Notes under the pieces: generated by a model | Databases searched by the model: none | What the model was told of the DNA's origin: nothing | Seen by the model: the letters and a program-made list of their open reading frames with translations, nothing else | Part shown: positions 12,851-35,365 of the stretch, piece after piece | Layout of the letters: every line of letters starts with the position of its first letter | Position numbering within the stretch: position 1 is the first letter of the stretch | Made by a program: the position numbers and the translations under genes | Assembly (NCBI GenBank): GCA_017938925.1 | Contig: JAGBAO010000012.1 | Coordinates: forward strand, 1-64,000 | Origin: Bacteroidales bacterium | GTDB taxonomy: Bacteria > Bacteroidota > Bacteroidia > Bacteroidales > UBA932 | DNA: 64,000 bases | Direction: 5' to 3'

Positions 12851-12882
12851 CTTGCGTTTGCGCGCATATTTGCGTAATTTTG
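12851..12882 (+). promoter_or_regulatory. Promoter of the fimbrillin-like operon
   Basis: -7 element TAATTTTG at 12875-12882 (exact TAnnTTTG) with CTTG at 12851-12854, 20 nt upstream, as a near-consensus -33 box. Predicted start near 12889, about 50 nt before the first ATG at 12940. It lies directly downstream of the G9 tract. Confidence 0.7.
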
Positions 12883-12939
12883 CGTATAGCTTTTGGGTGT
12901 ACTATGCCCGGTTGTGAGGTGAAAATAAAAATTCTAACA

Positions 12940-14181
12940 ATGATAAGACTTAAGAAGGTTTTGCTATTCGGCTTGATTTCCCTATGCGGGGCGCTTAGCG
13001 CATACGCACAGGATTTCACCGATACCCTTACGGTCTATTTCCCGATGAGCAGGTCTAATTTCAACCCTCAGTACATGGATAACGGAAAGCGATGCGATCA
13101 GTTCCTTGAGCATGCACGATCGCTCAGCTCAAACAAGTTCTTCCGTGTCTACAGGGTTGATTTTGTTGGATCGGCTTCACCGGATGGACCTGAGGCGTTC
13201 AATGCCGCTCTTGCTCAGAGACGTGCTGACAATCTGGTCAAGTATCTTCACAAGAAGGTCGAATTTCCCGATTCTGTTGTTTTCGTTTCGACAGTAACTG
13301 AGGATTGGGATGCTCTCGCAGGTATAGTCAGGGCTGACAAGGATGTCCCACAGCATGATGAGGTGCTCGCTGTGATCGGCAATGACGAGTTGGGAGAGGG
13401 CAGGGAATCAGAGTTGAAGAAGAACTATCCGGCGTCCTGGACCTATATGGCCAGGGAACATTTCCCGTTCATGCGAAGCTTTACCATCTTCATGCATGTC
13501 GGAGTCGAGTACCCGGAAATTCAGGAGGTGGAAAATGAACTGGACATGATGCTGCAGGCCGAAGAGGAACTCGTCATCGAGCAGGATTTCTTCAAGGTGC
13601 AGACAAAGGACACCGTTGCACTTCTGCCTATGCCTTGGAAACATGAACTGACCGTCAAGACAAACGGTGTAGGCTGGGCTATGGGACAGATCAACGTGGC
13701 TGCCGAGTATGACATCGCACCTCATTGGTCCATTGCAGTGCCGTTCTACTATTCCGGAGGATACAACTATTTCTCAAAGACGATCAAGTTCAGGGGCATA
13801 GTCCTTCAGCCAGAGGCAAGATATTACTTCAACGCCGACCTCGCCAATGATGGCTGGTATGTCGGTGCCCATCTGGGAGTAGGCTGGTACAATTTCGCAG
13901 TCAACGGTGACTATCGAATCCAGGACCACGGCGGAAAGCGTCCTGCCTGGGGAGGTGGAATCGGAGGTGGATACACCATGCAGTTCAAGAAGCATCCGGC
14001 CTGGGGCATGGAATTCGCCCTTGGCGCAGGCGTCTACGATGCCCTCTATGACAAGTTCTACAACGAAGTCAACGGACCTATCGCCGAATCATCAGTGCGC
14101 AAGGTCTTCTTCGGAATCGACAATGCAGCGGTTTCGGTCACATATAAGTTCGGTTTAAAGAGAAAGGAGGGCAAGAGATGA
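12940..14181 (+). CDS. OmpA-like / DUF3575 outer-membrane protein of a fimbrial operon
   Basis: A 413-residue protein. The ATG at 12940 is chosen because it gives a clean signal peptide (MIRLKKVLLFGLISLCGALSAYAQ); an in-frame upstream opening at 12880 overlaps the promoter. Residues about 25-120 resemble an OmpA-like domain (VYFPMSRSNFNP, then VDFVGSASPDGPEAFNAALAQRRADNL). The C-terminal half (VGWAMGQINVAAEYDIAPHWS, LQPEARYYF, YVGAHLGVGWYNF) is a DUF3575 beta-barrel-like domain. In Bacteroidales this combination heads fimbrial (Mfa/Fim) operons and is thought to anchor or organise the structure at the outer membrane. Its stop overlaps the next start (ATGA). Confidence 0.82.
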   Translation: MIRLKKVLLFGLISLCGALSAYAQDFTDTLTVYFPMSRSNFNPQYMDNGKRCDQFLEHARSLSSNKFFRVYRVDFVGSASPDGPEAFNAALAQRRADNLVKYLHKKVEFPDSVVFVSTVTEDWDALAGIVRADKDVPQHDEVLAVIGNDELGEGRESELKKNYPASWTYMAREHFPFMRSFTIFMHVGVEYPEIQEVENELDMMLQAEEELVIEQDFFKVQTKDTVALLPMPWKHELTVKTNGVGWAMGQINVAAEYDIAPHWSIAVPFYYSGGYNYFSKTIKFRGIVLQPEARYYFNADLANDGWYVGAHLGVGWYNFAVNGDYRIQDHGGKRPAWGGGIGGGYTMQFKKHPAWGMEFALGAGVYDALYDKFYNEVNGPIAESSVRKVFFGIDNAAVSVTYKFGLKRKEGKR

Positions 14182-15197
14182 AAAGACTGATCAGAATCCT
14201 TCCTGTCATCGTCATCATGCTCACCTCATGTGTCCATGAATGGCCGACCTCGGTTCCGACCGACCTTTCGCTCAAGCTGGTCTTCGACCGCAGCATCACT
14301 CCGTACGATACGGTGACATTCGACACAAGAACCCGTGCGGCGGAATCGTTCGATGTCAGATATGTCATTGAAGCATTCAGAAGCAAGCCGAGTGGCGCCG
14401 ATTACTACCGCGACGCAGCCGCCCGTATGGTCTGCACAAAGGATGACGTGCTGAATCTTGACCATGAAGTCCGTATGACAGTCCCTGATGAAGGAAAATA
14501 TGTCATCAAGGTCTGGGCAGACTTTGTCGAGGCAGGCAGTCAGGAACATAGATTCTACAATACGGATAACTTCGGTGAAATCACCATACACGCACATGAG
14601 GGTAACTCGGAATACCGTGATTCATACATCGGAACCACAGAGATTGAGGTCATCAGATATGGCTCGGAAGTTCCTGTCGTATCAGGAACTGTCAATATGT
14701 CCAGACCTCATGGTAAATTCCAGATCATCTCTACCGACCTCAATGACTTTGTGACCAAGGAAACCAAGCTCATGAGGGAACGTCTGGTGCAGAGCGGTAT
14801 GGATCCGACAAAGATTCCTGAGACCATCGACCTGGACAATTATGTGGTGCGTGTCATGTATAACGGCTTCATGCCGTCAGCATTCAATATGCACACTGGG
14901 CGTCCGAACGACTCTTCGACAGGAGTGTACTTCGATTCAACCATATCGGCGCTTAGCGAAAACGAGGCCCTCCTCGGATTCGACTATGTCCTCGCACAGG
15001 AAGGAGATGCCAGCGTGACCCTGGCTGTCGTGATCTACGACAAGGCAGGCAACGAACTCTCCGCCACCGACAACGTGTCAGTTCCGCTCAAACGAAGCAT
15101 GCTGACGACCATCAAGGGCAACTTCCTCATCCAGGAGTCCGGCGGCGGTGTCTCCATAAACCCTGATTTTGACGGTGAATTTAATCTTGTAATATAA
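14178..15197 (+). CDS. FimB/Mfa2-like fimbrillin-family lipoprotein
   Basis: A 339-residue lipoprotein with lipobox MLTSC at about residue 15. It has the core motifs shared by all later members of the locus: a KVWADFVEAGSQ strand (compare VLFWAQ), FYNTDNFGEITI, and MSRPHGKFQII (compare ERPVAQLNI). The C-terminal part has GVYFDSTISALSENEALLGFDY and KRSMLTTIKGNFLIQ, the latter equivalent to the YRTNILGNLIT motif of the others. By position (second gene, after the DUF3575 anchor) it fits the Mfa2/FimB anchor subunit, which limits fibre length and ties the fibre to the cell. Coupled by ATGA overlap to the anchor gene. Confidence 0.72.
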   Translation: MKRLIRILPVIVIMLTSCVHEWPTSVPTDLSLKLVFDRSITPYDTVTFDTRTRAAESFDVRYVIEAFRSKPSGADYYRDAAARMVCTKDDVLNLDHEVRMTVPDEGKYVIKVWADFVEAGSQEHRFYNTDNFGEITIHAHEGNSEYRDSYIGTTEIEVIRYGSEVPVVSGTVNMSRPHGKFQIISTDLNDFVTKETKLMRERLVQSGMDPTKIPETIDLDNYVVRVMYNGFMPSAFNMHTGRPNDSSTGVYFDSTISALSENEALLGFDYVLAQEGDASVTLAVVIYDKAGNELSATDNVSVPLKRSMLTTIKGNFLIQESGGGVSINPDFDGEFNLVI

Positions 15198-15206
15198 GGC
15201 ATGCCA

Positions 15207-16019
15207 ATGAAGAATACATTATATATATTGATTGTAGTTGCCATGACATTGTCCGCATGCAGCAAGCCGGAGTCTCTTCCGGCTCCTGGCGGTGAGGTTA
15301 TCGTGAATTATTCCGTTGCTGTCCCTCAGACCAGGGCGGTGCCGGACGATGCGGTCAACTATGTATGGTATGCCCTATATGACCATGGCACGGGGACTCT
15401 CCTCAAGGAGTATGAACCGGTGATTGTCATCGGCGGAAGGGCAGAGTGTCCTGTGAGCATGATGCGTAAGCATTCTTATAAGGTTGTATTTGTTGCGCAG
15501 CATTTCGAACTGAATGGCGGACAGAAAGTCCCTTCATATTCTGTTGATGCTCAGGCGGCTGTGATTTCCATGCCACGTCTGGCAGTTGCCAATTCCGATA
15601 ACTATGATGTTTTTACATGTGTGGATGAAGTTCTTGATTATGATGGGGCAGAACCGGGGCCGGTAGAGTTGAATCGTATAACCGCACAGGTGAAATTTAA
15701 ATGTATTCCTGCTTCCTGGGATTCCTTTATGCCGACAGCAAGTTCCCTCGCATTGGAAGGAGTGCCGCAGTCATACAATTTGTTGACAAAGGAGTTTTCG
15801 GCAACAGCAGTCAAGGTGGAATATGCTAAGGCATCTCTTGACAATGGACAGCCTTGCTTGATAGGAACAGCCTACTGCTTTGCCCGCGAAAATATATCAA
15901 AGGCAGAACTTACGCTATATAATAATAGCAGGCATATTGTCCTTGAGGCAGATTCAGTGCCAGTGGAAAAGAACAACAGGACTAATGTCCTCTTTACAGA
16001 AGATCTGAATAATCTATAA
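15207..16019 (+). CDS. Short fimbrillin-like lipoprotein (P0)
   Basis: A 270-residue lipoprotein (lipobox TLSAC). The ATG at 15207 has AAGG about 8 nt upstream; ATG 15201 is an alternative adding two residues. After the lipid anchor comes VPQTRAVPDD, a basic-Ala site like the others in the locus. KVVFVAQHF, YDVFTCVDEV, PVELNRITAQVKF and, at the very end, NNRTNVLFTEDL follow. The protein stops at this last motif, so it is a single fimbrillin-like (DUF6562-type) domain without a beta-helix extension. It lies between the FimB-like gene (9 bp) and P1 (18 bp). Confidence 0.7.
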   Translation: MKNTLYILIVVAMTLSACSKPESLPAPGGEVIVNYSVAVPQTRAVPDDAVNYVWYALYDHGTGTLLKEYEPVIVIGGRAECPVSMMRKHSYKVVFVAQHFELNGGQKVPSYSVDAQAAVISMPRLAVANSDNYDVFTCVDEVLDYDGAEPGPVELNRITAQVKFKCIPASWDSFMPTASSLALEGVPQSYNLLTKEFSATAVKVEYAKASLDNGQPCLIGTAYCFARENISKAELTLYNNSRHIVLEADSVPVEKNNRTNVLFTEDLNNL

Positions 16020-16037: not shown

Positions 16038-19000
16038 ATGAAAAAGTTATTTTACACAGCGACCCTCGTCGCGCTCTCGATTCTGGCGGCATCCTGCCAG
16101 AGGGAGAACCTGGAACCGCTTGACGCCCAGGTGGTAACGTACACCGTGCAGTTGCCGGATGCTATCGGCACAAAGGCATCTGGTGACGGAATGACACTTC
16201 ATTATGAGGTGTATCGTACAGATGAAGAAGAAGCGACTGATTTCACTACAGGAGCTACTCTTCTCTATCACAAGGAGGAGGCTTTCGAGAACGGAGTGGT
16301 CAATCTTAATCTGGAACTCGTAAACAATCAGAACTTCACAGTTCTTTTCTGGGCTCAGACAAATGGCAATGATGCATTTGACTGCGATGATCTGACGAAT
16401 GTCACAATTTCAACAGACCTCAAAGCCAATCAGGAGAACTATGCGGTTTTTTCCGGTCATGATTTTATCGAGTCTGGTGAACAGCTTACAGGTCGTGAAA
16501 TCAAACTCGAACGCCCGGTTGCTCAGCTCAATATAGCTACAACTGCTGCCAGTCTTGAATCTTTTAACTCTATCGTTACAATTGATAAGTCATCTGTAAC
16601 GCTCACAGGTAAGCTTGCAACTTCATATAATGTTGCTACTCTTACTGCCGGTACAGCAGCAGATGTTGAGTTTACATATTCAGCGCAGGAAGCACCATCA
16701 GGTGAGTTCAAGACCGATTATCCATATGTTGCGATGAACTATGTTGCTTTCGTTGATGCAGACGGTGAGAATGTAAAGGTTGACTACACAATCAAGACTT
16801 CAGTGGGAGACATCACCAACACTATCGGCAACGTTCCTCTCAAGCCTAACTACCGTACAAACATCCTCGGTAACCTCATCACAGAAACATCTGACTATGA
16901 GGTGTCTCTTGAAGCAGACTGGGGTGGTGCCGCCGAAGAAGTGGAGGTCATTACAGATGGTCTTGTCAAGATCAATGGAGTGTACAATGTATCAAATGCA
17001 AATGGTCTTGCATATGCTTCTCAGAATCTGTTTGCTAAGGAAGGTGGTTCATATGTATTGACTGAGGATATTGATATGACAGGTGCTTCATCTGTTGTTA
17101 CTAAGGCAGCAGGATTGACATATAATTCAGCTGCCTTGACTCATATGATGACTTCTGGACAATCATTTGAGTTTGATGGTGCTGGTCATGTTATCAAGAA
17201 TCTTCCGGGAATGTTCATTGCTTATACAGGTTCTGCAAAATCTGTAGTTGTCAAGAACTTGACTTTGGAGACCCCTAATGTAGCATATAATGTCAATGAT
17301 GACCCGGATGCAAATGGTAATAAAACCGATGCGGTAGGTGCTTTCATCGGTTATGCCGGTACTTCTACGACTATTACTCTCGAGAACTGCCACGTAAAGG
17401 GAGGTAAGATTGAAGGTGGTCACTGGACAGGTGGATTTGTAGGTTATGCTGCCGGCTGGTCTGGCAATGGCCCTGTTTTCGAAACATTGACAATCAAGGA
17501 TTGTTCTGTAAAGAATGCTGAAATTACAGGTAAGGGTTCTTGCGGCGGTATCATCGGCCATGCAACAGGCGATCCTTGGACATTGGTAGATATGGACAAT
17601 ATTGCAGTTGCTTTCAATAAGATCATCTCGACAGGATCTTCTGACAATAAAGCAGGTTCCGTAATGGGTACTCTTGGTACTGCCGGTCAGCCTACAACTG
17701 TAAACGGTGTGACCAAGACAGGTGGAGTGACTATTGATAGCTATGAAGCTTCAGTTAATGATGTTAAGTCAAATAATGTCGTTAATACGAAACTTTGGGG
17801 CCGTCAGGGAAATAGCGACGGCGTATTGACTATCAACGGTGAGAAGGTAACTGATTTCAATGCAGGTGTTGCTACTACCGACGCTGTTACCGTAAGCAAT
17901 GATGAAGAATTGGCTAAAGCTATTGCAGGAGCTACTGGCGATATGGTCATTAAACTTGCTTCAGGAACTTATAGTAGTGATATCAACCTCACTGTTGCAG
18001 AATATGGCGGTGCAAAGGGTGATCTTGTTTTCAAGGCCGTTGAAGGTGCTGAGCCTGTTATTGCTGGTACTGTGACTTTGGGACTTTATGAAAAACAAAC
18101 AACAAATGTAGCTAAGTGGAAAGGCAACGTAACATTTGAAGGCATTACATTCGACCATGCAGAAGCAGCAAATCACAGTTTTAGCGTACAGAATGTTGGT
18201 ACAGATGACAAATCTGTAGCTCTTACACTCAAGAACTGTAAGATTATCGGTGATGGTGAGTATGGAATAGGTGCTAATTCTGGTTGTATAGCTTATAACT
18301 CTAGTATTATTGGTTGTACTTTCGAAAATGCAGCCATGCAAATTACTGGAAATTTTGGTACTGGTCTTGTAATTGATGGATGTACTTTCAATGAGTCTCG
18401 CATTAATGTGCAGGGCGGTAACGGTGTGACTGTTCAGAACTGTAACTTCACAAATACGTTAACTGATGCGTATTTAAATAAAGATTTCTATCTGATTCGT
18501 TCTAATGCTATTCCGATGACTGTGAAAGAATGTAATATCGTGATTGATTCGGAATTATCAGATGTCGCAACTGATCAGGATAAGTGGGCTATTCTTTGGA
18601 AACGTAAAGCCGATGCAAAATGGAATGTGTCTGATGTTAATATCCAAATGACAGACACAGCTATCGAACAGCAAAGTCTTATGGTGATTAAGGACGAGGG
18701 TACTGATAACTTTAATCTTAACAATATTACTTTAAACGATAAGGCTTTTGCTTCTACAGCAGCTTCGTTGACTTATGCTGTTAATTCCGGTGCTACAGAT
18801 ATTTATGTAGAAGGCAATTTCAAGATGCCGACCAGCGGTACTTCAAATGCTATCACAATCAATTCATGGAACGGAAAAGCTACCATCGACAACACCCTCG
18901 GTTCTTATTGGGATGGTGCTACCTTGACATTTAACAATGTCAACTTCAAGACTAGCACAGGCTATGCTAATGGAAATGGCTCTGACTACGCAGCTCTGTA

Positions 19001-19502
19001 TTCTAAGAATGTTACTTACAATAAATGTAACTTCAGTGGTCCGATGCGCCTTGGTCGCGACGGAGCTAAGTTCATAGATTGTACATTTAACGATCTGGGC
19101 AATGATTACGTCTGTACATATGGCAATGCGGCCTCATTCACAGGTTGTACATTCAATTCTGCAGGTAAAGCTCTCTTGATTTACAGTGACGGAAATGGTT
19201 CAGGAAAATCACCTGCTGTAACTGTGACCGGTTGTACATTCAATGCGACACAGGCAGGATATGCTGCCGCTATTTCTAACCAATCTTGTGCAGCTATTGA
19301 AATTGATAACTACGGTTGTGGAGTAACGTTGACTACATCAGAAAATACCGTAGATTCAGATTTCTCAGGTGAGTGGAGAATCAAGACATATTATACTGGC
19401 AAAGGTAATGCCGTTTCAGCAAACGGTACAGAATACACCACTCTTGCTCTCGATGGCAGGACTATGACCATTGAAGGTACAGTTGTTACTGTTCAGTATT
19501 AG
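16038..19502 (+). CDS. Fimbrillin-like lipoprotein with right-handed beta-helix (P1)
   Basis: An 1154-residue surface lipoprotein. Lipobox AASC at 20 is followed by QRENLEP and the basic-Ala site IGTKASGDG near 46. The fimbrillin-like (DUF6562-type) domain runs to about residue 290 and carries TVLFWAQ, LERPVAQLNI and NYRTNILGNLIT. The rest is a long repeat region of Asn/Cys-rich turns typical of parallel beta-helices (GAFIGYAG, GGFVGYAAG, LTLKNCKI, IIGCTFEN, VQNCNFT, FIDCTFND, FTGCTFNS), the first part with GLUG-like GG(F/I)(V/I)G motifs. Beta-helices often bind or process glycans, but no catalytic residues can be assigned. It looks AT-richer than the flanking housekeeping genes. Probably an extracellular adhesin or pilus-tip-like subunit. 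Confidence 0.75.
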   Translation: MKKLFYTATLVALSILAASCQRENLEPLDAQVVTYTVQLPDAIGTKASGDGMTLHYEVYRTDEEEATDFTTGATLLYHKEEAFENGVVNLNLELVNNQNFTVLFWAQTNGNDAFDCDDLTNVTISTDLKANQENYAVFSGHDFIESGEQLTGREIKLERPVAQLNIATTAASLESFNSIVTIDKSSVTLTGKLATSYNVATLTAGTAADVEFTYSAQEAPSGEFKTDYPYVAMNYVAFVDADGENVKVDYTIKTSVGDITNTIGNVPLKPNYRTNILGNLITETSDYEVSLEADWGGAAEEVEVITDGLVKINGVYNVSNANGLAYASQNLFAKEGGSYVLTEDIDMTGASSVVTKAAGLTYNSAALTHMMTSGQSFEFDGAGHVIKNLPGMFIAYTGSAKSVVVKNLTLETPNVAYNVNDDPDANGNKTDAVGAFIGYAGTSTTITLENCHVKGGKIEGGHWTGGFVGYAAGWSGNGPVFETLTIKDCSVKNAEITGKGSCGGIIGHATGDPWTLVDMDNIAVAFNKIISTGSSDNKAGSVMGTLGTAGQPTTVNGVTKTGGVTIDSYEASVNDVKSNNVVNTKLWGRQGNSDGVLTINGEKVTDFNAGVATTDAVTVSNDEELAKAIAGATGDMVIKLASGTYSSDINLTVAEYGGAKGDLVFKAVEGAEPVIAGTVTLGLYEKQTTNVAKWKGNVTFEGITFDHAEAANHSFSVQNVGTDDKSVALTLKNCKIIGDGEYGIGANSGCIAYNSSIIGCTFENAAMQITGNFGTGLVIDGCTFNESRINVQGGNGVTVQNCNFTNTLTDAYLNKDFYLIRSNAIPMTVKECNIVIDSELSDVATDQDKWAILWKRKADAKWNVSDVNIQMTDTAIEQQSLMVIKDEGTDNFNLNNITLNDKAFASTAASLTYAVNSGATDIYVEGNFKMPTSGTSNAITINSWNGKATIDNTLGSYWDGATLTFNNVNFKTSTGYANGNGSDYAALYSKNVTYNKCNFSGPMRLGRDGAKFIDCTFNDLGNDYVCTYGNAASFTGCTFNSAGKALLIYSDGNGSGKSPAVTVTGCTFNATQAGYAAAISNQSCAAIEIDNYGCGVTLTTSENTVDSDFSGEWRIKTYYTGKGNAVSANGTEYTTLALDGRTMTIEGTVVTVQY

Positions 19503-19535: not shown

Positions 19536-19541
19536 TATCGA

Positions 19542-19615: not shown

Positions 19616-22600
19616 ATGAAGAAATTGCTTTATTGCGCGGCAGCTCTCGCAACGCTTCTCTTCGCTGGCTCTTGCCAGAGGGAGAATCTTGAGCCTGCTC
19701 AGGAGAGCGCAGCAGTGACTTTCACTGTCGAGGCTCCGGCCGCTCTTCAGACCAGAGCAATCGCTGACGGTCTGAACGTCAATGAGCTTATTTACGAGGT
19801 ATGGCTTACCGAGACTCTCGGTGACCTTACTCAGAATGCTCAGAAGCTTTATCAGGCTAAGACCGATATGGCTGTTGAGAATGGTGTAAACAAGGCTACC
19901 CTCACTCTCGATCTGGTAAACGACCAGAAATTCACTGTCCTCTTCTGGGCTCAGGTGAAAGAGGCTGGTGCCTACACTACTGATAAACTTACAGAAGTGA
20001 CTTATGCAAAGAATGAGTACAATTCTAACGATGAGTCCCTTGCTGCTTTCTATGCAGTTGCATATGTAAATGACAGCAAGCATGTGGAGAAGGATGGAAC
20101 AACAGCAGCAGATTCAAAGGTTTCTCTGCGTCGTCCATTCGCGCAGCTCAATTTGGGTACTCTCAACACTTCTACTGCTTATACTGTTGCACTTGAAAAG
20201 TCAATGGTTACAGTGGAAAATGTAAACACTGTATTCAATGTAGCTACAAGTGAGGCAACTCAGCCTGTTGCAAAGACATTCAAGATGGCGGAAGTGCCAA
20301 CAGAGTCTCTCTCAGTAAACGGAACAACTTATGAGTATGTTGCTATGAACTACATGTTCGCTGGCGACAATATCTCTGTTTCATACGATATCGAGACTAC
20401 CTTGAACGGCACTAGTGCTCATGTTACAAATACTGTTTCTAGTGTTCCTCTCAAGGAAAATTACCGCACCAATATCATCGGTAACCTCCTGACAAGCAAG
20501 GTTGACTATGAGATTGTTGTCGATGCTGCTTTCAATACTCCTGATGAGATTGTAGTAGAGGGAGTTGATTATGTTACAACTGATCTTGAACTTAATGAGG
20601 CCCTGAAGCAGGACAAGAGAGACATCGTGATTGATCTTGCGCAGGAGGAAGTGACAAGGGCTACATCTCCAAAGACATATAATGTAGACGTGACTTCCTG
20701 GAAGAAACTTGCATTTGGTGGTGAACTGACTAAATCCATCACTATCAATGCAAACGGCAATACAATCAATTTCAATCTTTTGGATGGCGATTGGAGCCAC
20801 GTTTCTCTTAATAACGATGACGCAGTTCTGACTATCAATGATGCCAATATAACAACCAGTGGAGAAAATACAGGCCATTGGAAGAGGGTAATCCTTCACT
20901 TTGCATCTGATGTAGTTCTGAATAATGTAACCGCTGCTAATGGTCTTGGTTTCAAGAAGGATGCATATCTTAATGATGTTGAGGTCTCTCAGGTAGGAGA
21001 TAATTATGCACTTTGGGTATGGGCTCAGGGACAGACTGTGACACTTGATGGCGTTTCAGTTGATTCTCCAGGCCGTGCGCTCAAGGTCGCTGACGAAGAT
21101 GCAACTGGTCCTGCAAAGGTTACTGTCAATGTTTCTAATTCTACATTCAAATCAGTAAAGAAGGCAGCAATCCTCGTGACATCGAAAGCAGGTGCTGTCA
21201 TCAACTGGGGCAAAGGCAACGACATCACAGGTGTGGCTGCTGATCCTGCAAATGCTGTTTGGGTTGATGATGGCGAGAAATATCAGAATATTGAGGATGT
21301 TACAGTAACAGGAGCATCAGTGATTATTGAGGGGCAGGTAAGCGCGACTCCAGTAGTTACTAACGCAGAAGAGCTCAAGGCTGCCATTGCAGCTGCAAAT
21401 AATGATAAGCAGACTGTAATACTTCTTAAGGCTGGTACATATACAGGTGCATTTGACATTGATGGTAAGAATGTTGCCCTTATCGGTGAGGATGGTGTTG
21501 TTATTGACGGACTTGTACACGGTCTTGATTTTGCGCATATCCTTCTTCGTAACATTACACTTACTAATGCAACTCCTGCTGCCTCTGGTTCGGCACGTCA
21601 TAATGCAGATTACTATTGTCTTGGTGCGTATGTTGCGGATATTACCATTGAAGACTGTGTGTTCGATGTAAATAATTCTGGCAATGCAGCTGGCAAGGGA
21701 GCAATCAATATTTATGCGAATCGTTCAGACTATAAGACATCTGAGATCAATGGTGTTCAGTATGATCTTGTAATCAGAAATACTACATTCAACTGTAACG
21801 GCGAGCGCCCGATCCGCGGTAAAACAAATTCTTACATTGATGGTTGTACTTTCAATGACCAGCATCGTTATGCAATCCAGGTTCAGGGTAACAGTGGTCT
21901 TTCAACTGAGACTGTTACATTCATCAATAATAAGATCGTAAATCCTTGTTCAACTTCAGGTGAAGCATTTGCTGCCGGTGTTTCTATTTCGAAATCTCAG
22001 CTTCTTGAGGAGGCTGCATTCAATATTTCCGGCAATACTCTTGAGTCTACCAAGTTTGAGGATCTTAAGTTTGTCTATGACATATCCGACAATGTAAAGA
22101 TCACAACTTGTTCTCTCAACGGCAAGCAGATAGAAGATACTCAGTTGTTTGTAATAGAGGGTGTAGATGATGCCAAGGAAGTATATATGGAACTTCCATA
22201 TTCTTATGACGAAGTAAAAACTTATACTGTTTATACTCCGCTCGGACTTTCCATTATTAATGCCAAGATGGCAGATAAGTCTCTCGGCAGGGATGCAATA
22301 GTAGTGCTCGCAAATGACATAGATTTCACTGGATATACTTGGACTCCGGTTGACTCACATGCAGATAGCGCTTTCGAGATTGCAGAGATTAATGGTAATG
22401 GGCATACTATAAGTAATTTCACTATTAACGGTCAGGCTATGTTCAAGCGTTTTGCTGGTTCTGGTGACGTTGTTATTAAAGATATTACATTTGATAATGC
22501 TACAGTCAACAGTACTGCAATAAATACTTCCATTCTGACAGTTCAGACATATCAGAATGTCCTTCTTGATAATGTTGACGTTAAGAATTCTACTATTACG

Positions 22601-27216: not shown

Positions 27217-27295
27217 CTGTGGACATTCCCGATGTGGGACGAGCTCACCTGCGCGAGAGGAATGGAGAATGTTTAACGTTTAAATGTATAAAGTT

Positions 27296-27454: not shown

Positions 27455-27458
27455 GCAT

Positions 27459-27989
27459 ATGGATATTGATGAACTTCAGTTTGTACGCTTGACTCCAGAT
27501 TTTGAATTCACGGAATTTGATTGCGGTCATGATGATCTGAATGATTTTCTTCTGAATGATGCTAAGGAGTACCAGAAAGGACTGATTGCCGTTACATATC
27601 TTGTCAAGTATCACGATGAACTTGCCGGATACTTTACTCTATCCAATGACAAGTTGTCGATAAAGGATAGTGATAAGTCAAGTTGGAGGAAAGTCAAGAA
27701 CCTTTTTCACCATAGCAAGCATCGGGGAGATTATCCTGCAGTCAAGGTCGGTCGACTTGCAGTGGGATGTAAGTATCAAGGCTTTGATATAGGCTCCCGG
27801 ATTCTTGATTTTGTCAAGTATGCTTTCGTATATAAGAAGCGAACCGGATGTGCATTTGTCACAGTGGATGCGTTGAGGAATGTAGTCGATTTTTATTATA
27901 AGAATAATTTCAAGACTCTAGTTCCCTTTACTGGCGAATCTGATAATTTAACGGTACCGATGTATTATAATTTATTGGAGCTGATCTGA
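27459..27989 (+). CDS. GNAT-family N-acetyltransferase, TacT-like (copy 2)
   Basis: A 176-residue protein. The ATG at 27459 is chosen; the frame also opens at TTG 27444 inside the small ORF. It begins DELQFVRLTPDFEFTEFDCGHDDLNDFL, the typical head of TacT/AtaT-like GNATs. Core beta4 and the acetyl-CoA loop are PAVKVGRLAV followed by YQGFDIGSRIL (Q/RxxGxG/A-like, with Asp where Gly is usual). TVDALRNVVDFYYKNNF follows, and the terminal MYYNL has the Tyr usually needed for catalysis. TacT-type toxins acetylate aminoacyl-tRNA and are held by a small antitoxin. Here the partner would be the preceding 52-residue protein. The target is not provable from sequence. Confidence 0.75.
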   Translation: MDIDELQFVRLTPDFEFTEFDCGHDDLNDFLLNDAKEYQKGLIAVTYLVKYHDELAGYFTLSNDKLSIKDSDKSSWRKVKNLFHHSKHRGDYPAVKVGRLAVGCKYQGFDIGSRILDFVKYAFVYKKRTGCAFVTVDALRNVVDFYYKNNFKTLVPFTGESDNLTVPMYYNLLELI

Positions 27990-28045: not shown

Positions 28046-28181
28046 TTCGTTTCTGGCAGTGATGCCGGAAACGAAAAGACAAAGATTCGGATTTCTTCGT
28101 CCCTGAAAACGGGGTGTTCGTCACAAAAACGGATAAAAAAAAGAAATTTGAATAAAAAAAAGAAAAACTTGCATGTGTCGT

Positions 28182-28213
28182 CTTGACGGAGCGGTATGAC
28201 TTTCATACATTTG
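28182..28213 (+). promoter_or_regulatory. Promoter of GNAT cassette 3
   Basis: CTTG (28182-28185), 20 nt spacer, TACATTTG (28206-28213). Same as the other two cassettes. Confidence 0.7.
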
Positions 28214-28292
28214 CTGTGGACATTCCCGATGTGGGACGAGCTTACCTGCGCGAGAGGAATGGAGAATGTTTAACGTTTAAATGTATAAAGTT

Positions 28293-28454
28293 ATGGCAAC
28301 ACCGATTAAAGAGACTCCGATTTTGACGGGTAATGATGCGAAAAGATTCATTCAGCGTATGAGTGAAAAACGTGAGATTTCTGAAGGAGAAATAGTTCGT
28401 ATGAGGAGGAACTATGAACTGATAATGAGTATAGCAGATTTTGATTATGAATGA
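28293..28454 (+). CDS. Small cassette protein, antitoxin-like (copy 3)
   Basis: A 53-residue protein. It begins MATPIKETPILTGNDAKRF and so keeps the family head, with a divergent charged helix (REISEGEIVRMRRNYELIMSI) and DFDYE at the end. The stop overlaps the GNAT start region (28447-28454), so the two genes are translationally coupled more tightly than in copy 2. Widespread small Bacteroidales proteins share this head; their role as antitoxins is an inference. Confidence 0.68.
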   Translation: MATPIKETPILTGNDAKRFIQRMSEKREISEGEIVRMRRNYELIMSIADFDYE

Positions 28455-28998
28455 GGAAATTTTGACTTCTTGTCGTGTGAGACTGATGCGTGATGGAGAG
28501 TTGATAAGAGATTTCTCATGTAATGATTTAGATTTGGACGATTATATATTGAATGAGGCTGATTTATATCAGTCAGAATTCTTGGCGACAAACTATCTGC
28601 TGGAAGATTCGAAAGCTAACCTCATGGCATTCTTCACTCTGCTCAATGATCGAGTTTGTGTCGCTGATTTCCGCAGCAAAACCGAATTCAATCGATTCAG
28701 AAAGCGGAGATTCGTACAAGCCAAGCGTTTTAAAGGATATCCAGCAGTAAAGATTGGACGTTTGGCAGTCTCAACCAAGTGGATGCGTAATGGATTAGGT
28801 TCCATTTTGTTGGATTTTATTAAGTCTTATTTTACCAAGAACAGAAGGACTGGATGCCGTTTTTTGACTGTCGATGCATATCATGGTGCCGTTGACTTTT
28901 ATGCCAAAAACGGGTTTGTCCGACTAAGTGAGGGAAGTTCTGATGGAAATACATGTTTAATGTATTATGATTTGATTGACTATAAGTCTAAGTTATAA
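28447..28998 (+). CDS. GNAT-family N-acetyltransferase, TacT-like (copy 3)
   Basis: A 183-residue protein (ATG 28447, overlapping the small ORF by 8 bp). It is only distantly similar to copy 2 but has the same layout: FSCNDLDLDDYILNEADLYQ, AFFTLLNDRV, PAVKIGRLAV, an acetyl-CoA loop MRNGLGSILLDFI, RRTGCRFLTVDAYHGAVDFYAKNGF and the terminal MYYDL. Shared cassette ends with different cargo suggest cassette exchange rather than simple duplication. Probably a translation-inhibiting acetyltransferase toxin, but it could be an ordinary acetyltransferase. Confidence 0.75.
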   Translation: MNEEILTSCRVRLMRDGELIRDFSCNDLDLDDYILNEADLYQSEFLATNYLLEDSKANLMAFFTLLNDRVCVADFRSKTEFNRFRKRRFVQAKRFKGYPAVKIGRLAVSTKWMRNGLGSILLDFIKSYFTKNRRTGCRFLTVDAYHGAVDFYAKNGFVRLSEGSSDGNTCLMYYDLIDYKSKL

Positions 28999-29210: not shown

Positions 29211-31616
29211 ATGAAAAAGTTTTTCTACTTTGCAGCGGCTGCGGTCATGATGCTGACAGCAGCTTGTCAGCGTGAAATGCTTGAATCACCGCTTCAGGGC
29301 GACACAAAGGTGACTTTCACCGTAAGTCCTGCTGAGGCTGCGACAAAGGCGGACATTGCTGACGGTACGAATGTAGATATCCTTTATTGGGAAATCTACG
29401 ATGAGAATCTCACAACTCTTCTAGGCGAGAACTCAGTGGGAAAAACAAGTGACAAGACCTTTACTGTGGATCTCTCACTTGTGGCTGACCAGAAATACAA
29501 TATCATTTTCTGGGCAGAAGTAGACGGCAAGGGTCATTATGTGACTGATGACCTCCGTAAGGTGGGCATCAACTACACTGATGAAAATGGAGATCCGTTG
29601 AAGGCCAACAAAGAGGAGCGTGCAGCTTTCTTCAGAGTGTATCCTTTCAGCACTGAGAACGGAGAGCCTATCAATGAGGATGTTGAAATCTATCGTCCAT
29701 TCTCACAGCTCAACCTTGGCGCAACTACACTCACAACATCACTTAATAAGGTGAATGGTGGTCAGATCGAGGTCGAGTCCACTTCAGTGACCGTGACAAA
29801 TATCGCTAATGTATTCAATACAGTTTCTGGTAAGGGTGAAGGTGAAGTTCCTGTGACCTTTGCTCATGCCAAGACTCCTGTTGACGACTACACTCAGAAA
29901 GATCTCGAGGTGGGTGGTGCTACATATCACTGGCTCGGAATGAACTACCTCGTTGTCAACGATGACTCTGACAATGTGACTGTCGATATAGAGGTCAAGA
30001 CCTCTGTAGGAACTGTAAAACACTCTGTTCCAAACGTTCCGATTAAGGAAAACTACCGTACAAACATCCTCGGTGACATCCTCACAACAGGTGCGACATT
30101 CAAGGTGATCGTGGACGAGAAGTTCCAGAAGCCAGACTATATCACTACACATGACGGGACCTACACACTCACATCTCTTGCAGACCTTCAGTGGTTCCAG
30201 CAGCAGGTGAACAAGGAGGGAAGCACATTCGAAGGCAAGACCGTCAAGCTCGGTGCTGACATCGACCTTCAGGGTGCAGAGTGGGAGCCTATCTCTGGTT
30301 TCAAAGGTACATTCGACGGTTCAAGCCTTACAAAGGGAGCTGCTGACAACTACACAATCAGCAATTTCACTGTCAATGTAAACAAGAACGGTGGTTTCTT
30401 CGGAAGCATCAACGGAACAGTCAAGAATGTCAATGTCGAGAATGCTACTGTGGTTTCAAATCACTTTGCAGGTGCTCTCGTGGGATATGCATATGGACGC
30501 ATCGAGAACTGTCATGCAAGTAATGTGAGAGTTACTTCAGAGCCTGAACTTATCAACGGCAAGTACGACAACGGTGACAAGGCTGGTGCAATCGTAGGTT
30601 ACATCTGCGGTGAGCCTATGTCATATCTCGTTAACTGCTCTGCAACCAACGCTACTATCACAGCTTACCGCGACCTCGGTGCTGTAGCAGGATGTATCTC
30701 TGGAGAAATGACTGTAGAGGGTAACGCAGCAAAGGATTGCAAGATTGTTCTTGACCAGGTTATCAATGGCGAGTACGCAGGAAGCAAAACAGCAAATGCA
30801 AATGCGATAGTAGGACGCAATCAGACAAGCAACATAACTGAGGCAGACTTCAATGCAATCAATGATGTCGCTCAGGGAGTTGAGAACAAGAAAACAGTTG
30901 CCCTTGACGAAGGAACTAATGATAAACTCGCCGAGGCCCTTAATAATTCCGACGTCGCAGCAGTTGAGCTCCCTGCTGGTGAGTATATCATTCCAGCCAC
31001 AGCCAAAGGAAAGGAAATAACGTTCAAGGGAACAGATAAACCAGAGGATGTTGCTGTTGCAGTAACCAAGGTCGGAACAGGCGGAGAGAACTGCGACTAC
31101 GGTCTTGACGGCTCTACCGTTACTTTCGAGAACATCACAATCACCACCAACAGCTCGACTTACATCGGATATGCCCGTTGCAACGGTACATACAAGAACT
31201 GTATCATCAACGGAACATACACCCTCTATGGTGACAGTGTATTTGAGAACTGTACATTCAATGTTTCGGGTAATGTCTACAACATCTGGACTTGGGGCGC
31301 TCCTACAGCCAGATTCGTGAACTGTACATTCAATTCAGACGGTAAGGCCCTCCTTCTTTACGGAACGGCAAATACAAAACTTACGGTTGAGAACTGTACA
31401 TTCAACGATAAGGGCGGCCTGTCAGACAAGAAGGCAGCAATCGAGATCGGTAACGACTACAACAAGTCATATGAACTGATCGTAAACAAAACTACTGTCA
31501 ACGGTTACGAGATCAATGACGAGGGTATCAACACCGGTACCACTCTCTGGGCAAACAAGAACTCAATGCCGCAGGATAAACTCAACGTCGTAGTAGACGG
31601 CGTAGACGTATACTAG
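29211..31616 (+). CDS. Fimbrillin-like lipoprotein with GLUG/beta-helix (P4)
   Basis: An 801-residue lipoprotein (lipobox TAAC at 19, then QREMLES). Basic-Ala site AATKADIADG is near 46. Fimbrillin-like domain with YNIIFWAE, IYRPFSQLNLGAT and NYRTNILGDILT (near residue 285). After a strand-rich linker (LTSLADLQWFQQQVN, GADIDLQGAEWEPI) come GLUG-like repeats (GGFFGSING, GALVGYAYG, GAIVGYICG, GAVAGCISG). A short Asn-Cys-Thr-Phe beta-helix follows (FENCTFNVSG, FVNCTFNSDG, VENCTFNDKG). The TGTACATTCAA repeats at DNA level match P1. Confidence 0.75.
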   Translation: MKKFFYFAAAAVMMLTAACQREMLESPLQGDTKVTFTVSPAEAATKADIADGTNVDILYWEIYDENLTTLLGENSVGKTSDKTFTVDLSLVADQKYNIIFWAEVDGKGHYVTDDLRKVGINYTDENGDPLKANKEERAAFFRVYPFSTENGEPINEDVEIYRPFSQLNLGATTLTTSLNKVNGGQIEVESTSVTVTNIANVFNTVSGKGEGEVPVTFAHAKTPVDDYTQKDLEVGGATYHWLGMNYLVVNDDSDNVTVDIEVKTSVGTVKHSVPNVPIKENYRTNILGDILTTGATFKVIVDEKFQKPDYITTHDGTYTLTSLADLQWFQQQVNKEGSTFEGKTVKLGADIDLQGAEWEPISGFKGTFDGSSLTKGAADNYTISNFTVNVNKNGGFFGSINGTVKNVNVENATVVSNHFAGALVGYAYGRIENCHASNVRVTSEPELINGKYDNGDKAGAIVGYICGEPMSYLVNCSATNATITAYRDLGAVAGCISGEMTVEGNAAKDCKIVLDQVINGEYAGSKTANANAIVGRNQTSNITEADFNAINDVAQGVENKKTVALDEGTNDKLAEALNNSDVAAVELPAGEYIIPATAKGKEITFKGTDKPEDVAVAVTKVGTGGENCDYGLDGSTVTFENITITTNSSTYIGYARCNGTYKNCIINGTYTLYGDSVFENCTFNVSGNVYNIWTWGAPTARFVNCTFNSDGKALLLYGTANTKLTVENCTFNDKGGLSDKKAAIEIGNDYNKSYELIVNKTTVNGYEINDEGINTGTTLWANKNSMPQDKLNVVVDGVDVY

Positions 31617-31701: not shown

Positions 31702-32643
31702 ATGAAAAAGTTATTCTACTGTGCCGCAGCTCTCATTGTCCTCCTCTTCGGCAGTTCATGCCAGCAGGAGAAACTTGAGCCGGCCGGAGAACAGACACTC
31801 GTTACGTTGGAGGTAGAGATTCCGTATCTGGCTCAGACTAAGGCCATTTCCAAGGCGGAACTCACTGATATCGTATATTATGAGATCTGGAGAACAGGTG
31901 GAACAGAGAAACTCTTTGCATCCTCTGCTGTCGTGACTGATTGCAAGGCTTCCATTCAGATTTCTCTTGTCAAGGGCTTGACCTATGACTTCATCTTCTG
32001 GGCTCAGAACAAGGATTGCGGAGCGTATGACGTGACGGAACTCAAGACAGTCAAGGTGAAATATGATGTCATTACCGCAGCCGGCAATCAGGATAAGTTC
32101 GATGCGTTCTATGCATTCAGATCTTACACTGTCGAGGTGCCGTTCGACAAGACTGTCAAACTCGAAAGACCGTTCGCTCAGCTGAATTTCGGAGCCACTA
32201 AGATGGCTACCACGCTTGGTGACATCAAGTTGGGAGATACGCAGGTGACTGTAAGCCCGGGACTTCCTACCGTCTTCAATACGGTCGAGGGCAAGGGTGA
32301 GACTCCGACAGCAAATCCTGTGACCTTCAAAGCCAAGGGACTTGCCACTTCCGCTGAGAAACTTGAGGTGGACATTGACAAGAACGGCTCCATCTCAGAA
32401 GAAGAGAAGTTCACATGGGTGTCCATGAATTATATGCTCAGGTCTGACGAAAGCACATACACCGTCACCACAGACTTCGGTGTCGAGGGAGTGGGCTCTG
32501 TCAAGCATTCCGTTTCGAATGTACCGCTCAAGGCAAACTACCGCACAAACATTCTCGGTGACCTGTTCACAAGCGATGCAAGACTCAACATCGTGGTGGA
32601 GCCGGATTTCAAGAAGCCGGACGAGGTGAAGGACGCAATATAG
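31702..32643 (+). CDS. Single-domain fimbrillin-like lipoprotein (P5)
   Basis: A 313-residue lipoprotein (MKKLFYCAAALIVLLFGSSC, QQEKLEPA). Basic-Ala site AQTKAISKAE near 47. Fimbrillin-like domain with YDFIFWAQ, LERPFAQLNFGAT and NYRTNILGDLFT near residue 283, ending about 20 residues later (PDFKKPDEVKDAI). It is the only one of P1-P6 without a C-terminal display domain. It may be a stalk-type subunit or an original single-domain member rather than a broken gene, since the stop follows at the natural domain boundary. Confidence 0.72.
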   Translation: MKKLFYCAAALIVLLFGSSCQQEKLEPAGEQTLVTLEVEIPYLAQTKAISKAELTDIVYYEIWRTGGTEKLFASSAVVTDCKASIQISLVKGLTYDFIFWAQNKDCGAYDVTELKTVKVKYDVITAAGNQDKFDAFYAFRSYTVEVPFDKTVKLERPFAQLNFGATKMATTLGDIKLGDTQVTVSPGLPTVFNTVEGKGETPTANPVTFKAKGLATSAEKLEVDIDKNGSISEEEKFTWVSMNYMLRSDESTYTVTTDFGVEGVGSVKHSVSNVPLKANYRTNILGDLFTSDARLNIVVEPDFKKPDEVKDAI

Positions 32644-32690: not shown

Positions 32691-32710
32691 TCTTACTTTC
32701 CGCAGCGGCT

Positions 32711-35365
32711 TTGCTGACATTGCTTTTCGCTGCATCGTGTCAGAAAGAAGACTTCTCTGGCGCAGATGGGGAATTTGCGACCGTGACTCTCACAGTCCAG
32801 GCTCCGGCATCTCCTGTAACCAAGGCTTTTGGTGATGGAACTACCTCAAACCTTCGTCTCGATTTCGGCGTGTTCGATGAGAACGGTGAGGTGCTTGATG
32901 CCCTTCGTCAGACTGATATCGAGTTCGGTGCTGCCGACTCAGAGGGCAAACGTTCGACAACAGTTAAAGTCAACCTTGCCAAAGGTAAGACTTACCATTT
33001 CATTTGCTGGGCTCAGGACAATACGCTGGCTTGCTACAATCATGGCGATCTGAAGGCTATTACCGTTGACTATTCAAAGGACAACGCAGCAAATGTAGAG
33101 AAACGTGACGCTTTCTACGCATGCGTGAAATCAGACATCGTAACGGCAGACTATACCCAGACAATCACTCTTACCCGTCCTTTCGCACAGCTTAATGTGG
33201 GCTCTGACGATCTTAAGGAGGCAGAGAAGGCAGGCCTTGACACCACTAAACTTTATGTGGAACTCAGCGTGACCGATTGCCCTAACGTGCTTAATGCTGA
33301 TTTCGCTAAGCAGTCATATACTGTTGCCGGTTCAGTAGAGGCAACATTCACAAAGGCAATCTGCCCTGCAACAGGCACGAATCCGGAGAGAATCAATGTG
33401 GAACTCAACGGTACTCCAAAGAGTTACAGCTGGCTCTCAATGAACTATATCTTCACTTCAGTCAGCAAGGATGACCTTAAGAAAGTGACTTTCAATCTCT
33501 ACGAGGAAGGCACTCATCTTGTTACCTACACAGAGGACAACGTGCCTTTCCAGGCAAACTGGCGTACAAACCTCCTCGGCCGTCTTCTGACAACTGACGG
33601 AAAACTCACAGTTGTTATCGATCCGAACTTTGCGAATGTCCACAACATCTATCTTGATGCAATCTCACAGGCAGCTCTTAAAACAGCAATAGATAATAAG
33701 GTGGCTGGAACATACAATGTTTCAGGTTATGTTCACGCCGTTGCGGCAGTGGGTACAGACCTGGAGACAGTCACTTTGAAGGATGACAAGGATGAAGCCA
33801 ATCCAACAGAAACAAGAGACTATACACTCAGTGTAGTCGGTTTGAAGTCTGATGATACATTCTATCAGGAAGGTGACTATCTCGTAGTCTCAGTAACAGT
33901 TGATGCAGAGGGTGAGGTGTCAAATGCTCAGAATCACGTGTACCACCGTCCAGCAAAAGCCGATGATGAAGAGGTGGTTGAACCGGTTACACCGGAACTC
34001 TCTCTTGTTGTTGAAGATACAGTGCCAGTCCCTGCAGAGGGCGGTAATGTTACAGTCAAGGTCACTTCCAATGTGGCTTGGACTCTCTCACTGAACGGTT
34101 CTAAGGTTGCAGAGGGTAGTGAAGCCGTGGCTAACCATACAGTTGAGGTCGCAGTTCCTGCAAACGAACAAACAGAGGAGATAACTCATACACTTGTCCT
34201 TTCAGATGTCCCTGCAGAAGGCGCAACAGCAGTTACCAAGGAAGTCTCTTTCGTGCAGGCTGCTGCTGAGGCAGTAGAACCAGAGGTACCAGCATTTTCT
34301 GCAGGTAAATATTGGATTATGGCTATTGAAGATAATGTGACAAAGGTGATGACCCCACTTGCGGATAATTTGTCATATGGCTATGGTCCAAGTGCCGATG
34401 TTGTTGATAACAGAAGCTTTGCAATAAATGCTTTTACATTTAATGAAGTTGAAGGAGGATTTACAATTCAGGATGAGTCTGGAAAATATTATTATTCAGA
34501 TGCAACTCATAAATCTTTCCAACTTACTACAGATTCATCGAATGATGGTCTAGTATGGTCGGTATCAGTTCAGGAAGATGGAATATATATTCTTACCAAT
34601 GTCGCAACTGAACGTACTATGAAATATGGAGACGGTACTTTTACAACCTTCGGAGTATATTTGGATACAGAAGAAAATACAGGGGTATATCCTACTCTTG
34701 TTAAGGCCGATAACCCACTCCCGGTTGAGTTAAGTTCTATTTCTGTCAGTGGACACACTACTTCATTTATTGAGGGAGATTCATTTAAATTTGGTGGTAC
34801 AGTAACTGCTACATATACAGACGGATCGAAAAAAGATGTTACTGAGTATGCTTCAGTGACAGAGCCGTCTATGGCAGATGGAGCGACTGTTACTGTAAGT
34901 TATACAGAAGGTGAAGTTACAAAGACTTATGAGTATGTGATATCTGTGAGAGCAGCAGATGAAGAAGTTACACTTGTAAATGAAATATTGGAAATTACTG
35001 CTTCTACCGGTAGCTTGTCTGCAGACAGCGGCTCTATCTCTTGGACTGGAGAATACTTCACATGTACAAATGTAAAAGATCAAAGTAGTACCGCAATTCG
35101 TACAACCGATACAGATCACCATCGTTTTTATGTCGGCTCAAAACTAAAGTTTTCTTCGAATGATGGTAAGACTTTTAGTAAGCTAGTTCTAACCTGTCGC
35201 TCCTCATATGTGGCTAATACCGATAACGTTACTTATCCAACCAATGTTACCGTGAGTGTTGATGGTACAACCGTAACCATTACTTTCACAGAAGCTGTAT
35301 CTGAGATCTCACTTGATATCGTAAAACAAATACGTATTAGTAAAGTTGACGCAACACTTCAGTAA
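32711..35365 (+). CDS. Fimbrillin-like lipoprotein with BACON/Ig-like modules (P6), start out of frame
   Basis: The open frame starts only at TTG 32711 (884 codons), in the middle of a signal peptide (LLTLLFAASCQKEDF). The natural ATG at 32680 is out of frame because of an A8 tract. Basic-Ala site PVTKAFGDG; fimbrillin-like domain with YHFICWAQ, LTRPFAQLNVGS and NWRTNLLGRLLT. Instead of a beta-helix, the C-terminal half has an OB-like part (TYNVSGYVHAVAAVG), a BACON-type domain (LSLVVEDTVPVPAEGGNVTVKV, AWTLSLNG), a Big-type Ig domain (FKFGGTVTATYTDGSKKDVTEY) and a C-terminal beta domain. No hairpin precedes it; it lies 36 bp after P5. Confidence 0.72.
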   Translation: MLTLLFAASCQKEDFSGADGEFATVTLTVQAPASPVTKAFGDGTTSNLRLDFGVFDENGEVLDALRQTDIEFGAADSEGKRSTTVKVNLAKGKTYHFICWAQDNTLACYNHGDLKAITVDYSKDNAANVEKRDAFYACVKSDIVTADYTQTITLTRPFAQLNVGSDDLKEAEKAGLDTTKLYVELSVTDCPNVLNADFAKQSYTVAGSVEATFTKAICPATGTNPERINVELNGTPKSYSWLSMNYIFTSVSKDDLKKVTFNLYEEGTHLVTYTEDNVPFQANWRTNLLGRLLTTDGKLTVVIDPNFANVHNIYLDAISQAALKTAIDNKVAGTYNVSGYVHAVAAVGTDLETVTLKDDKDEANPTETRDYTLSVVGLKSDDTFYQEGDYLVVSVTVDAEGEVSNAQNHVYHRPAKADDEEVVEPVTPELSLVVEDTVPVPAEGGNVTVKVTSNVAWTLSLNGSKVAEGSEAVANHTVEVAVPANEQTEEITHTLVLSDVPAEGATAVTKEVSFVQAAAEAVEPEVPAFSAGKYWIMAIEDNVTKVMTPLADNLSYGYGPSADVVDNRSFAINAFTFNEVEGGFTIQDESGKYYYSDATHKSFQLTTDSSNDGLVWSVSVQEDGIYILTNVATERTMKYGDGTFTTFGVYLDTEENTGVYPTLVKADNPLPVELSSISVSGHTTSFIEGDSFKFGGTVTATYTDGSKKDVTEYASVTEPSMADGATVTVSYTEGEVTKTYEYVISVRAADEEVTLVNEILEITASTGSLSADSGSISWTGEYFTCTNVKDQSSTAIRTTDTDHHRFYVGSKLKFSSNDGKTFSKLVLTCRSSYVANTDNVTYPTNVTVSVDGTTVTITFTEAVSEISLDIVKQIRISKVDATLQ

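Follow-up and report, generated by a model that had tools for sequence, protein, structure and literature searches.

A lipoprotein array with fimbrillin-like heads and exchangeable tails in a Bacteroidales genome, probably a type V-like adhesin system

We analysed the first 64,000 nt of contig JAGBAO010000012.1 (the window) from a Bacteroidales bacterium (assembly GCA_017938925.1; genome size 2.67 Mb, 92% complete). Positions 12,940-35,365 hold an array of genes, all on the plus strand, that encode a DUF3575 barrel (BAR), a full-length DUF6562 lipoprotein that is the probable anchor of the array (ANC), and seven further lipoproteins (P0-P6) that share one head, followed in P1-P4 and P6 by a long tail. 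We read this locus as probably a type V-like adhesin system whose tips can be exchanged and in which one mounting domain serves several tip adhesins. What sequence comparison establishes is the common head, the homology of its first part to FimA-type fimbrillins, a conserved basic-alanine site, a recurrent gene order and the exchange of tails.

In a single alignment, P0-P6 share the lipid-bearing Cys, the basic-Ala site, the FWAQ strand and the RPFAQLN and NYRTNI motifs, with variants in P0 (FVAQ, RITAQVK, NNRTNV), P4 (FWAE, RPFSQLN) and P6 (CWAQ, NWRTNL). This agrees with a preliminary description of the DNA, which had listed seven further lipoproteins with a common head, and P0 and P5 do end at the end of the head domain, as it had stated. 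A six-frame search of the genome places ANC and P1-P6 above the cut-off of PF20200 (DUF6562), and these seven matches are all that the genome holds at E up to 1; in the protein scan, the family is listed for ANC and P3-P6 and is absent for P0, P1 and P2. None of the nine array proteins matches PF06321 (FimA), PF08842 (Mfa2) or PF13149 (Mfa_like_1) at E up to 1. The second gene of the array, previously called FimB/Mfa2-like, is instead a full-length DUF6562 protein with no Mfa2 match in the protein scan; the first is indeed OmpA/DUF3575-like, with its OmpA part below the cut-off (Table 1).

The relationship of the heads to type V pili emerges from profile comparison. With signal peptides trimmed, the head profile matches the FimA-type fimbrillins of the genus at 92.5% (176 columns, E 4.9e-7), and the TKA sites line up. 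As a yardstick, the comparison of FimA with Mfa2, which are both accepted as type V proteins, gives 7.9%, and the controls (reversed sequences, barrel proteins and one tail family) reach at most 1.0%, the reversed sequences alone at most 0.5%. Anchors match the FimA-type proteins at 58.9% and Mfa2 at 12.6% once signal peptides are removed. Signal peptides had contributed to these profile matches, since the untrimmed values were higher (98.1% for heads against FimA-type proteins, 96.0% and 91.1% for anchors against FimA-type proteins and Mfa2). The earlier proposal of a type V-like system thus stands on the profile homology to FimA-type fimbrillins, the conserved site and the pilus-like layout, and lacks a FimA, Mfa2 or Mfa_like_1 Pfam match.

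DUF6562 is found in 4 of the 61 genomes of the genus and in 23 of the 393 genomes drawn from the order, this genome included in both counts, and also in records other than metagenome-assembled genomes (MAGs). A head-alignment scan of GTDB contigs yielded 326 pattern matches, of which 315 were confirmed; the best 80 of these (73 loci) were kept and are mostly from MAGs of ruminant and other animal guts, together with strain-type records of Bacteroides, Alistipes and Prevotella (Bacteroides gallinarum DSM 18171, Alistipes sp. Marseille-P5061 and Prevotella sp. P5-108). Using profiles built for this analysis, we classed 36 stretches, a further 73 and the window, which yielded 60 anchors and 223 heads, or 198 heads after duplicates and incomplete ones were dropped. 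A lipobox is recognised in 174 of the 198 heads (24 are without). A basic residue followed by Ala or Ser lies 15-45 residues past the lipid Cys, mostly at 25-30, in 165 of these 174, compared with 308 of 1044 control windows (30%) elsewhere in the same proteins. The site is present in 20 of the 50 anchors with a lipobox (10 of the 60 have none recognised) and in 68 of 300 control windows.

Gene order is also shared with these relatives. For 47 of the 60 anchors, the first classed gene upstream is the barrel, and of the other 13 at least four sit no more than 70 nt from a contig end. Forty-seven clusters end inside their stretch and contain one head (17 clusters), two (17), three (7), four (1) or five (4), with the window as the sole seven-head cluster among them. 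Arrays in stretches without an anchor can be larger: G453:C25 (RGIG8520, water deer) carries 15 heads from the contig end onwards, and G454:C7 (RGIG9489, yak) carries 13. Weak and partial matches counted, 13 heads in RGIG5465, 19 in RGIG2076 and 22 in SIG178 are scattered over many contigs. The expected linkage of heads to DUF3575 and anchor genes is therefore common and not general, because at least three of the ten genomes searched have heads on many contigs. As a separate observation, a 339-residue open reading frame (ORF) without a head match lies between two heads of the yak array (L093 5871-6890, equal to L238, contig 227921-228940).

The exchange of tails is most directly seen in P2 and P3. 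In 100-residue windows, P2 is 57-87% identical to L092_1 of the deer-gut genome RGIG8520 up to about residue 530; from there to about residue 850 the match is to L092_2, the neighbour of L092_1 (54-87%), and after that to L093_1 (65-84%). P3, in the same type of windows, matches L092_2 at 56-82% as far as about residue 520 and L092_1 at 87-96% thereafter, and its distal DNA is 74-99% identical to that of L092_1, with 13 of 18 windows at 90% or above. Because the identity partners switch in opposite senses, the adjacent P2 and P3 have reciprocally exchanged their distal tips relative to RGIG8520. An assembly chimera was considered and rejected: the longest exact word shared is 17 nt, and 11 nt near the exchange zone. 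The deer-gut pair itself shares 43 nt exactly, and 16 nt near the zone.

Similar tails are also found on dissimilar heads, and identical heads before dissimilar tails. Over its last 217 residues, P4 is 85% identical to L072_8 (genome G195), with heads 30% identical, and the tail of P1 is 67-70% identical to that of L161_4 from a Mediterranea MAG, with heads at 27%. Conversely, tandem relatives have exactly identical head DNA, over 713 nt in a pair of L070 and 684-713 nt in two pairs of L145, with dissimilar DNA before the start and after the head; the L070 tails are weakly alike as protein (33%). The exact head repeats of L145 may be assembly copies (a metaWRAP bin, probably from short reads), which is less likely for L070 because it sits on a 1.59-Mb contig. 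Among the ten tailed pairs that each share a locus and have heads at least 80% identical, tail similarity is undetectable in seven, weak in two and strong in one. More broadly, 58 of the 106 head pairs with at least 60% identity show no tail similarity at E 1e-3, and 27 of the 64 tail pairs with at least 55% identity over 120 residues have heads below 45% by best local alignment, counts in which the pairs are not independent and a few local alignments are short. The best relative by head is the best relative by tail in 28 of 143 genes. Within the head, the two halves agree on it in 86 of 147 genes, and within the tail in 36 of 126. Together, the mosaic tails of P2 and P3, the head-identical pairs and the disagreement of best relatives support the earlier notion of a variant library in the form of an exchange of tips. 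The window as a whole looks like two loci joined, judging by best head relatives: those of P0 and P1 are in the anchor-led loci L118 (RGIG9489) and L156 (cow4.3), and those of P2-P6 are, in order, heads 1, 2, 4, 6 and 9 of L092 (RGIG8520). A different event is seen at L114 1096-6247, where two tandem heads have near-identical DNA that continues through at least 600 nt of the tail, a recent whole-gene duplication unlike the tail-swapped pairs.

From these features we infer surface location, cutting, strand exchange, fibre assembly and binding. Each protein would be exported, lipidated and displayed on the cell surface, where a surface protease would cleave after Lys or Arg in the loop that follows the head's first strand, and the opened groove would take a strand from a neighbouring subunit. 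ANC would form the lipid-anchored base, P0 and P5 would be short linkers, and the tailed heads would only terminate the fibre, serving as tips and keeping their beta-helix or other binding domains off the cell. Because the tail occupies the C-terminus, tailed heads would have to end the fibre or sit directly on the anchor. Recombination would swap tails within the array and between genera, and a lineage would thereby alter its binding target with the mount kept. The genome holds one gene of the C11 (clostripain) family, on G000:C32, with a 454-residue frame, whose product is a candidate for an Arg/Lys-specific surface protease of this kind.

The model of ANC places strands at residues 28-36, 41-45 and 58-69 and a low-confidence loop at 47-55; counted by hand on the model, the RTRA of ANC lies in or beside this loop. 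Confidence is also low over most of the last 18 residues, which might be a donor-strand-like feature.

Several observations weigh against a type V-like system of this kind. The homology to FimA spans just the first half of the head and is visible only by profile-profile comparison; a plain hmmsearch with the head profile finds nothing in the trimmed FimA set at E up to 1, the weak matches of earlier plain searches having come from untrimmed sequences that included signal peptides. Against Mfa2, the heads fall from 46.0% untrimmed to 0.2% without signal peptides, and against the three Mfa_like_1 proteins of the same genome they reach 0.1%. Sequence searches of the PDB with the head and anchor profiles gave 0 matches each. 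The ANC of the window has an R-A site, unlike Mfa2 of Porphyromonas gingivalis. The heads of the window are just 26-44% identical to that of P4, so that recent homogenisation of heads is seen in relatives and not in the window. The P2/P3 exchange zone lies about 200 residues into the tail, in a part common to both tails, and not at the head border. Finally, there is no clear stalk: the only stalk candidates in the window are P0 and P5, none is evident in the small clusters of relatives, and a long fibre is doubtful because 34 of 47 clusters have only one or two heads.

Part of this evidence would also fit separate surface lipoproteins, in which the fimbrillin-like domain is a spacer or export mount and cutting at the basic site frees the tails with no fibre formed. 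The frequent lipobox of the heads, the small clusters with no evident stalk and the many scattered head genes of several relatives all agree with such an arrangement. However, the position of the site and the gene neighbours match those of type V pili, and the lower frequency of the site in anchors than in heads would fit tips that are cut and a base that is not; we consider separate lipoproteins rather unlikely.

The preliminary description had also raised a silent/expressed library, for which the window gives no support. Upstream of P1-P6, no exact inverted pair reaches 12 nt, with one of 11 nt at P4, and no invertible-promoter repeats precede P0 or the first operon gene in a search for repeats of at least 24 nt. 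Some support comes from the sheep-gut genome RGIG5465. There, six copies of an inverted-repeat pair, with arms about 170 nt apart, are present genome-wide, and every one stands upstream of a head (6 of the 13 head matches); the reversed pattern, used as a control, has 0 matches. Each of these elements carries one TAnnTTTG box, which we take to be the Bacteroidales -7 box, about 22 nt from one arm; the box points to the gene in one element and away from it in five. By alignment, the gene-facing element is inverted relative to three of the others, and the remaining two do not align. The sequences look like an invertible-promoter set caught with one ON, a picture drawn from a single assembled genome. 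In two other genomes with dispersed genes, nothing consistent was found in 20 stretches upstream of heads; two stretches of G462 hold long palindrome-like pairs (19/20 and 14/15 nt) that exceed their six shuffles each.

These results also bear on antigenic variation from silent cassettes, in which one gene of the window would be expressed and the rest would serve as donors. The mosaic tails and the exchange between neighbours would suit this explanation, as would the out-of-frame start of P6 and the locus-specific repeats on either side of P3. Yet P0-P5 each have their own start, signal peptide and lipobox, P0-P2 and P4-P6 have operon-like spacing, the six-frame search finds no DUF6562 pieces besides ANC and P1-P6, and P1-P6 have no exact upstream inverted pair that reaches 12 nt, all of which make silent cassettes improbable. 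In P6 (window 32680-32711), a run of eight A directly follows the ATG near 32680, and here the signal peptide and the remainder of the protein lie in different frames, which may reflect a frameshift, a switch or an assembly error. Slippage at A runs as a general switch was rejected, P6 being the sole out-of-frame case at such a run among the 198 heads.

The tails themselves are varied. Four long tails had been described as beta-helices; the lengths hold, as far as approximate head ends allow, and Pfam backs a beta-helix in P3 only, with GLUG in P4 just short of the cut-off at 20.4 bits against 20.5. The tails of P1 and P2 have no Pfam match above cut-off and are tied to those of P3 and P4 only by 30-38% identity over 151-445 residues. 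Of the BACON/Ig-like modules ascribed to P6, BACON was not confirmed: the protein scan found none there, and Big_4 and DUF4969 are below cut-off. Among 44 chosen members of the wider family (E up to 0.01), the tails include GLUG (9), beta-helix (5), M26_N (4), Pectate_lyase_5 (4), LRR_5 (2), CBM_4_9 (2) and Chondroitinas_B (1). The last two and Pectate_lyase_5 would fit a glycan-degradation locus with polysaccharide-lyase-like enzymes as beta-helix tails on a lipoprotein mount, an explanation that is very improbable given that Pfam calls Pectate_lyase_5 an adhesive domain, that no enzyme family is above cut-off in P0-P6 and that the remaining tails are of LRR, GLUG or M26_N types.

The reading as a type V-like adhesin system can be extended, tentatively, to a combinatorial one: a constant DUF6562 mount could carry a pool of tips that recombine within arrays and across families, with invertible promoters in some dispersed-gene lineages so that about one variant is expressed at a time. 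If this possibility is true, surface variation would here be built on type V-like tip pilins and would proceed by whole-domain exchange. For the adhesin reading itself, if right, a large family would be added to type V-like pili, gut Bacteroidales would be seen to renew their adhesins by swapping tip domains, and there would be a natural mount on which binding domains already get exchanged. The strain-type records of Bacteroides, Alistipes and Prevotella make the reading testable.

Coordinates of the array and its surroundings are given in Table 1. The ORF of BAR begins at a TTG at 12880, and the ATG at 12940 is the plausible start, picked by eye.

Table 1. Features of the window in and around the array (window positions; tail lengths rest on approximate head ends)
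Feature	Position	Strand	Evidence
Bacteroidales small signal recognition particle (SRP) RNA gene, left edge of the island	12545..12652	-	Rfam RF04183, 112.2 bits
Run of nine G 5' of the first operon gene; possible slippage site or switch	12812..12820	.	sequence
BAR: OmpA-like part and DUF3575 outer-membrane barrel	12940..14181	+	PF12099 E 7.1e-27; OmpA E 0.1, below cut-off
ANC: full-length DUF6562 lipoprotein, probable anchor	14178..15197	+	PF20200 E 1.8e-78; model mean pLDDT 85.5, pTM 0.80
P0: short head lipoprotein without tail	15201..16019	+	head profile 94 bits; no Pfam match, none in six-frame DUF6562 search
P1: head and 844-residue tail	16038..19502	+	head profile 294 bits; DUF6562 41.9 bits, six-frame only
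P2: head and mosaic tail of about 778 residues	19616..22927	+	head profile 324 bits; DUF6562 50 bits, six-frame only
Approximate exchange zone in P2, residues 500-560, inside tail	21113..21296	+	nucleotide identity changes from L092_1 to L092_2
300-nt direct repeat, copy 1, left of P3	22926..23225	+	repeat comparison
Small ORF and shortened GNAT-like copy	23246..23647	+	no Pfam match
P3: head and 721-residue beta-helix tail	23828..26968	+	PF20200 E 3e-19; PF13229 E 5.3e-9
Approximate exchange zone in P3, residues 515-575, inside tail	25370..25553	+	nucleotide identity changes from L092_2 to L092_1
300-nt direct repeat, copy 2, right of P3	26964..27263	+	93% identical to copy 1
Small ORF and GNAT-like acetyltransferase	27284..27989	+	PF13673 E 2.2e-4, PF13508 E 3.2e-4, both below cut-off
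Partial third repeat copy	28067..28260	+	97% over 194 nt
Small ORF and GNAT acetyltransferase	28281..28998	+	PF13673 E 1.8e-8, above cut-off
P4: head and 483-residue tail of GLUG/beta-helix character	29211..31616	+	PF20200 E 6.4e-14; Glug E 6.5e-4, just under cut-off
P5: head only	31702..32643	+	PF20200 E 1.9e-10
P6: head and 562-residue tail	32711..35365	+	PF20200 E 3.5e-14

The locus behaves as a block that is gained or lost, because G021, which belongs to the genus and lacks DUF6562 matches, is without the 23 kb that separate the SRP RNA gene from the cytidine deaminase gene; the corresponding place (L173 3788-3916) is empty, and the alignments of the two genes end 37 nt apart (one comparison, with a MAG that is 77% complete). 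G021 carries another 2.1 kb on the opposite side of the SRP RNA gene, in a hot-spot-like manner. A gene of the IgA peptidase M64 family adjoins the SRP RNA gene upstream of the array (window 11206-12495); it is aligned in G021 too, so it is probably outside the system. In the P2-P3 and P3-P4 intervals (window 22926-28998), three pairs of a small ORF and a GNAT-like gene accompany the repeats of about 300 nt, whose other matches within the genome are no longer than about 46 nt. The pairs may be toxin-antitoxin-like cassettes that stabilise the repetitive array. As part of the mechanism they were rejected; in relatives, 7 of the 17 gaps longer than 250 nt between classed genes hold ORFs of at least 80 residues, with no search for GNAT pairs made there. 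A palindromic element of about 35 nt (CAAGCCC...GGGCTTG) occurs at five places between 19511 and 29169, namely the P1/P2 border, the end of P2, before P3, the end of P3 and before P4, and is a possible terminator or cassette border.

The array is not the only locus of this layout in the genome. Other DUF3575 genes, on contigs C2, C13 and C18, each precede lipoprotein genes with FimA, Mfa2 or Mfa_like_1 matches: FimA on C2, Mfa2 and FimA on C13, and on C18 (locus L031 632-11062) an OmpA/DUF3575 barrel, a DUF5119 lipoprotein and three Mfa_like_1 proteins, the largest with 1211 residues and a repeat match at its end. Because these loci resemble the array, the order of barrel, DUF lipoprotein, heads and tailed heads is not special to DUF6562. 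The C18 operon shares with the array the OmpA/DUF3575 barrel, the DUF lipoprotein and fimbrillin-like heads, the last with a long tail; it differs in its anchor and head families, the head profiles being unmatched (0.1%), with at least three heads there.

In the literature searched, which lacks most subscription journals and bioRxiv preprints, DUF6562 is named nowhere, and the titles and abstract starts of the matches listed hold no description of this system. Fimbrillin and beta-helix occur together in a biofilm review, and DUF3575 appears with fimbriae in two papers, in one of them as table entries. The swapping of tips suggests an undescribed way for gut bacteria to vary adhesion.

Among known systems, type V pili (FimA, Mfa1) share with the array lipoprotein precursors, a basic-Ala site behind the first strand, a DUF3575 neighbour, homology to the first part of the head and tips with C-terminal domains. 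The shaft and tip precursors of P. gingivalis are cleaved in the beta1-beta2 loop, and its Mfa2 stays uncut (PMC5789003). The array differs in that its DUF6562 heads and anchor are not PF06321 or PF08842 proteins, in having no evident stalk, in the at least 15 heads of one relative's array and in the exchange of tips between mounts. Bacteroidales invertons (PMC11892184) have inverted repeats on both sides of a promoter-like box ahead of surface genes, as in RGIG5465, but none was found upstream of P1-P6, nor consistently in the two other genomes. The vls cassettes of Borrelia are similar as an array of mosaic surface lipoproteins, whereas here whole genes and not fragments are arrayed and no single expression site is evident. 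Tailed tips as such are already known, since a 2025 review (PMC12632263) describes tip pilins with C-terminal binding domains and their diversification by retroelements in Bacteroides. That system and the array both have variable tips on pilins; in the array, whole tail domains are exchanged. What is new here, by the sequence comparisons above, is modular tips that are swapped between mounts.

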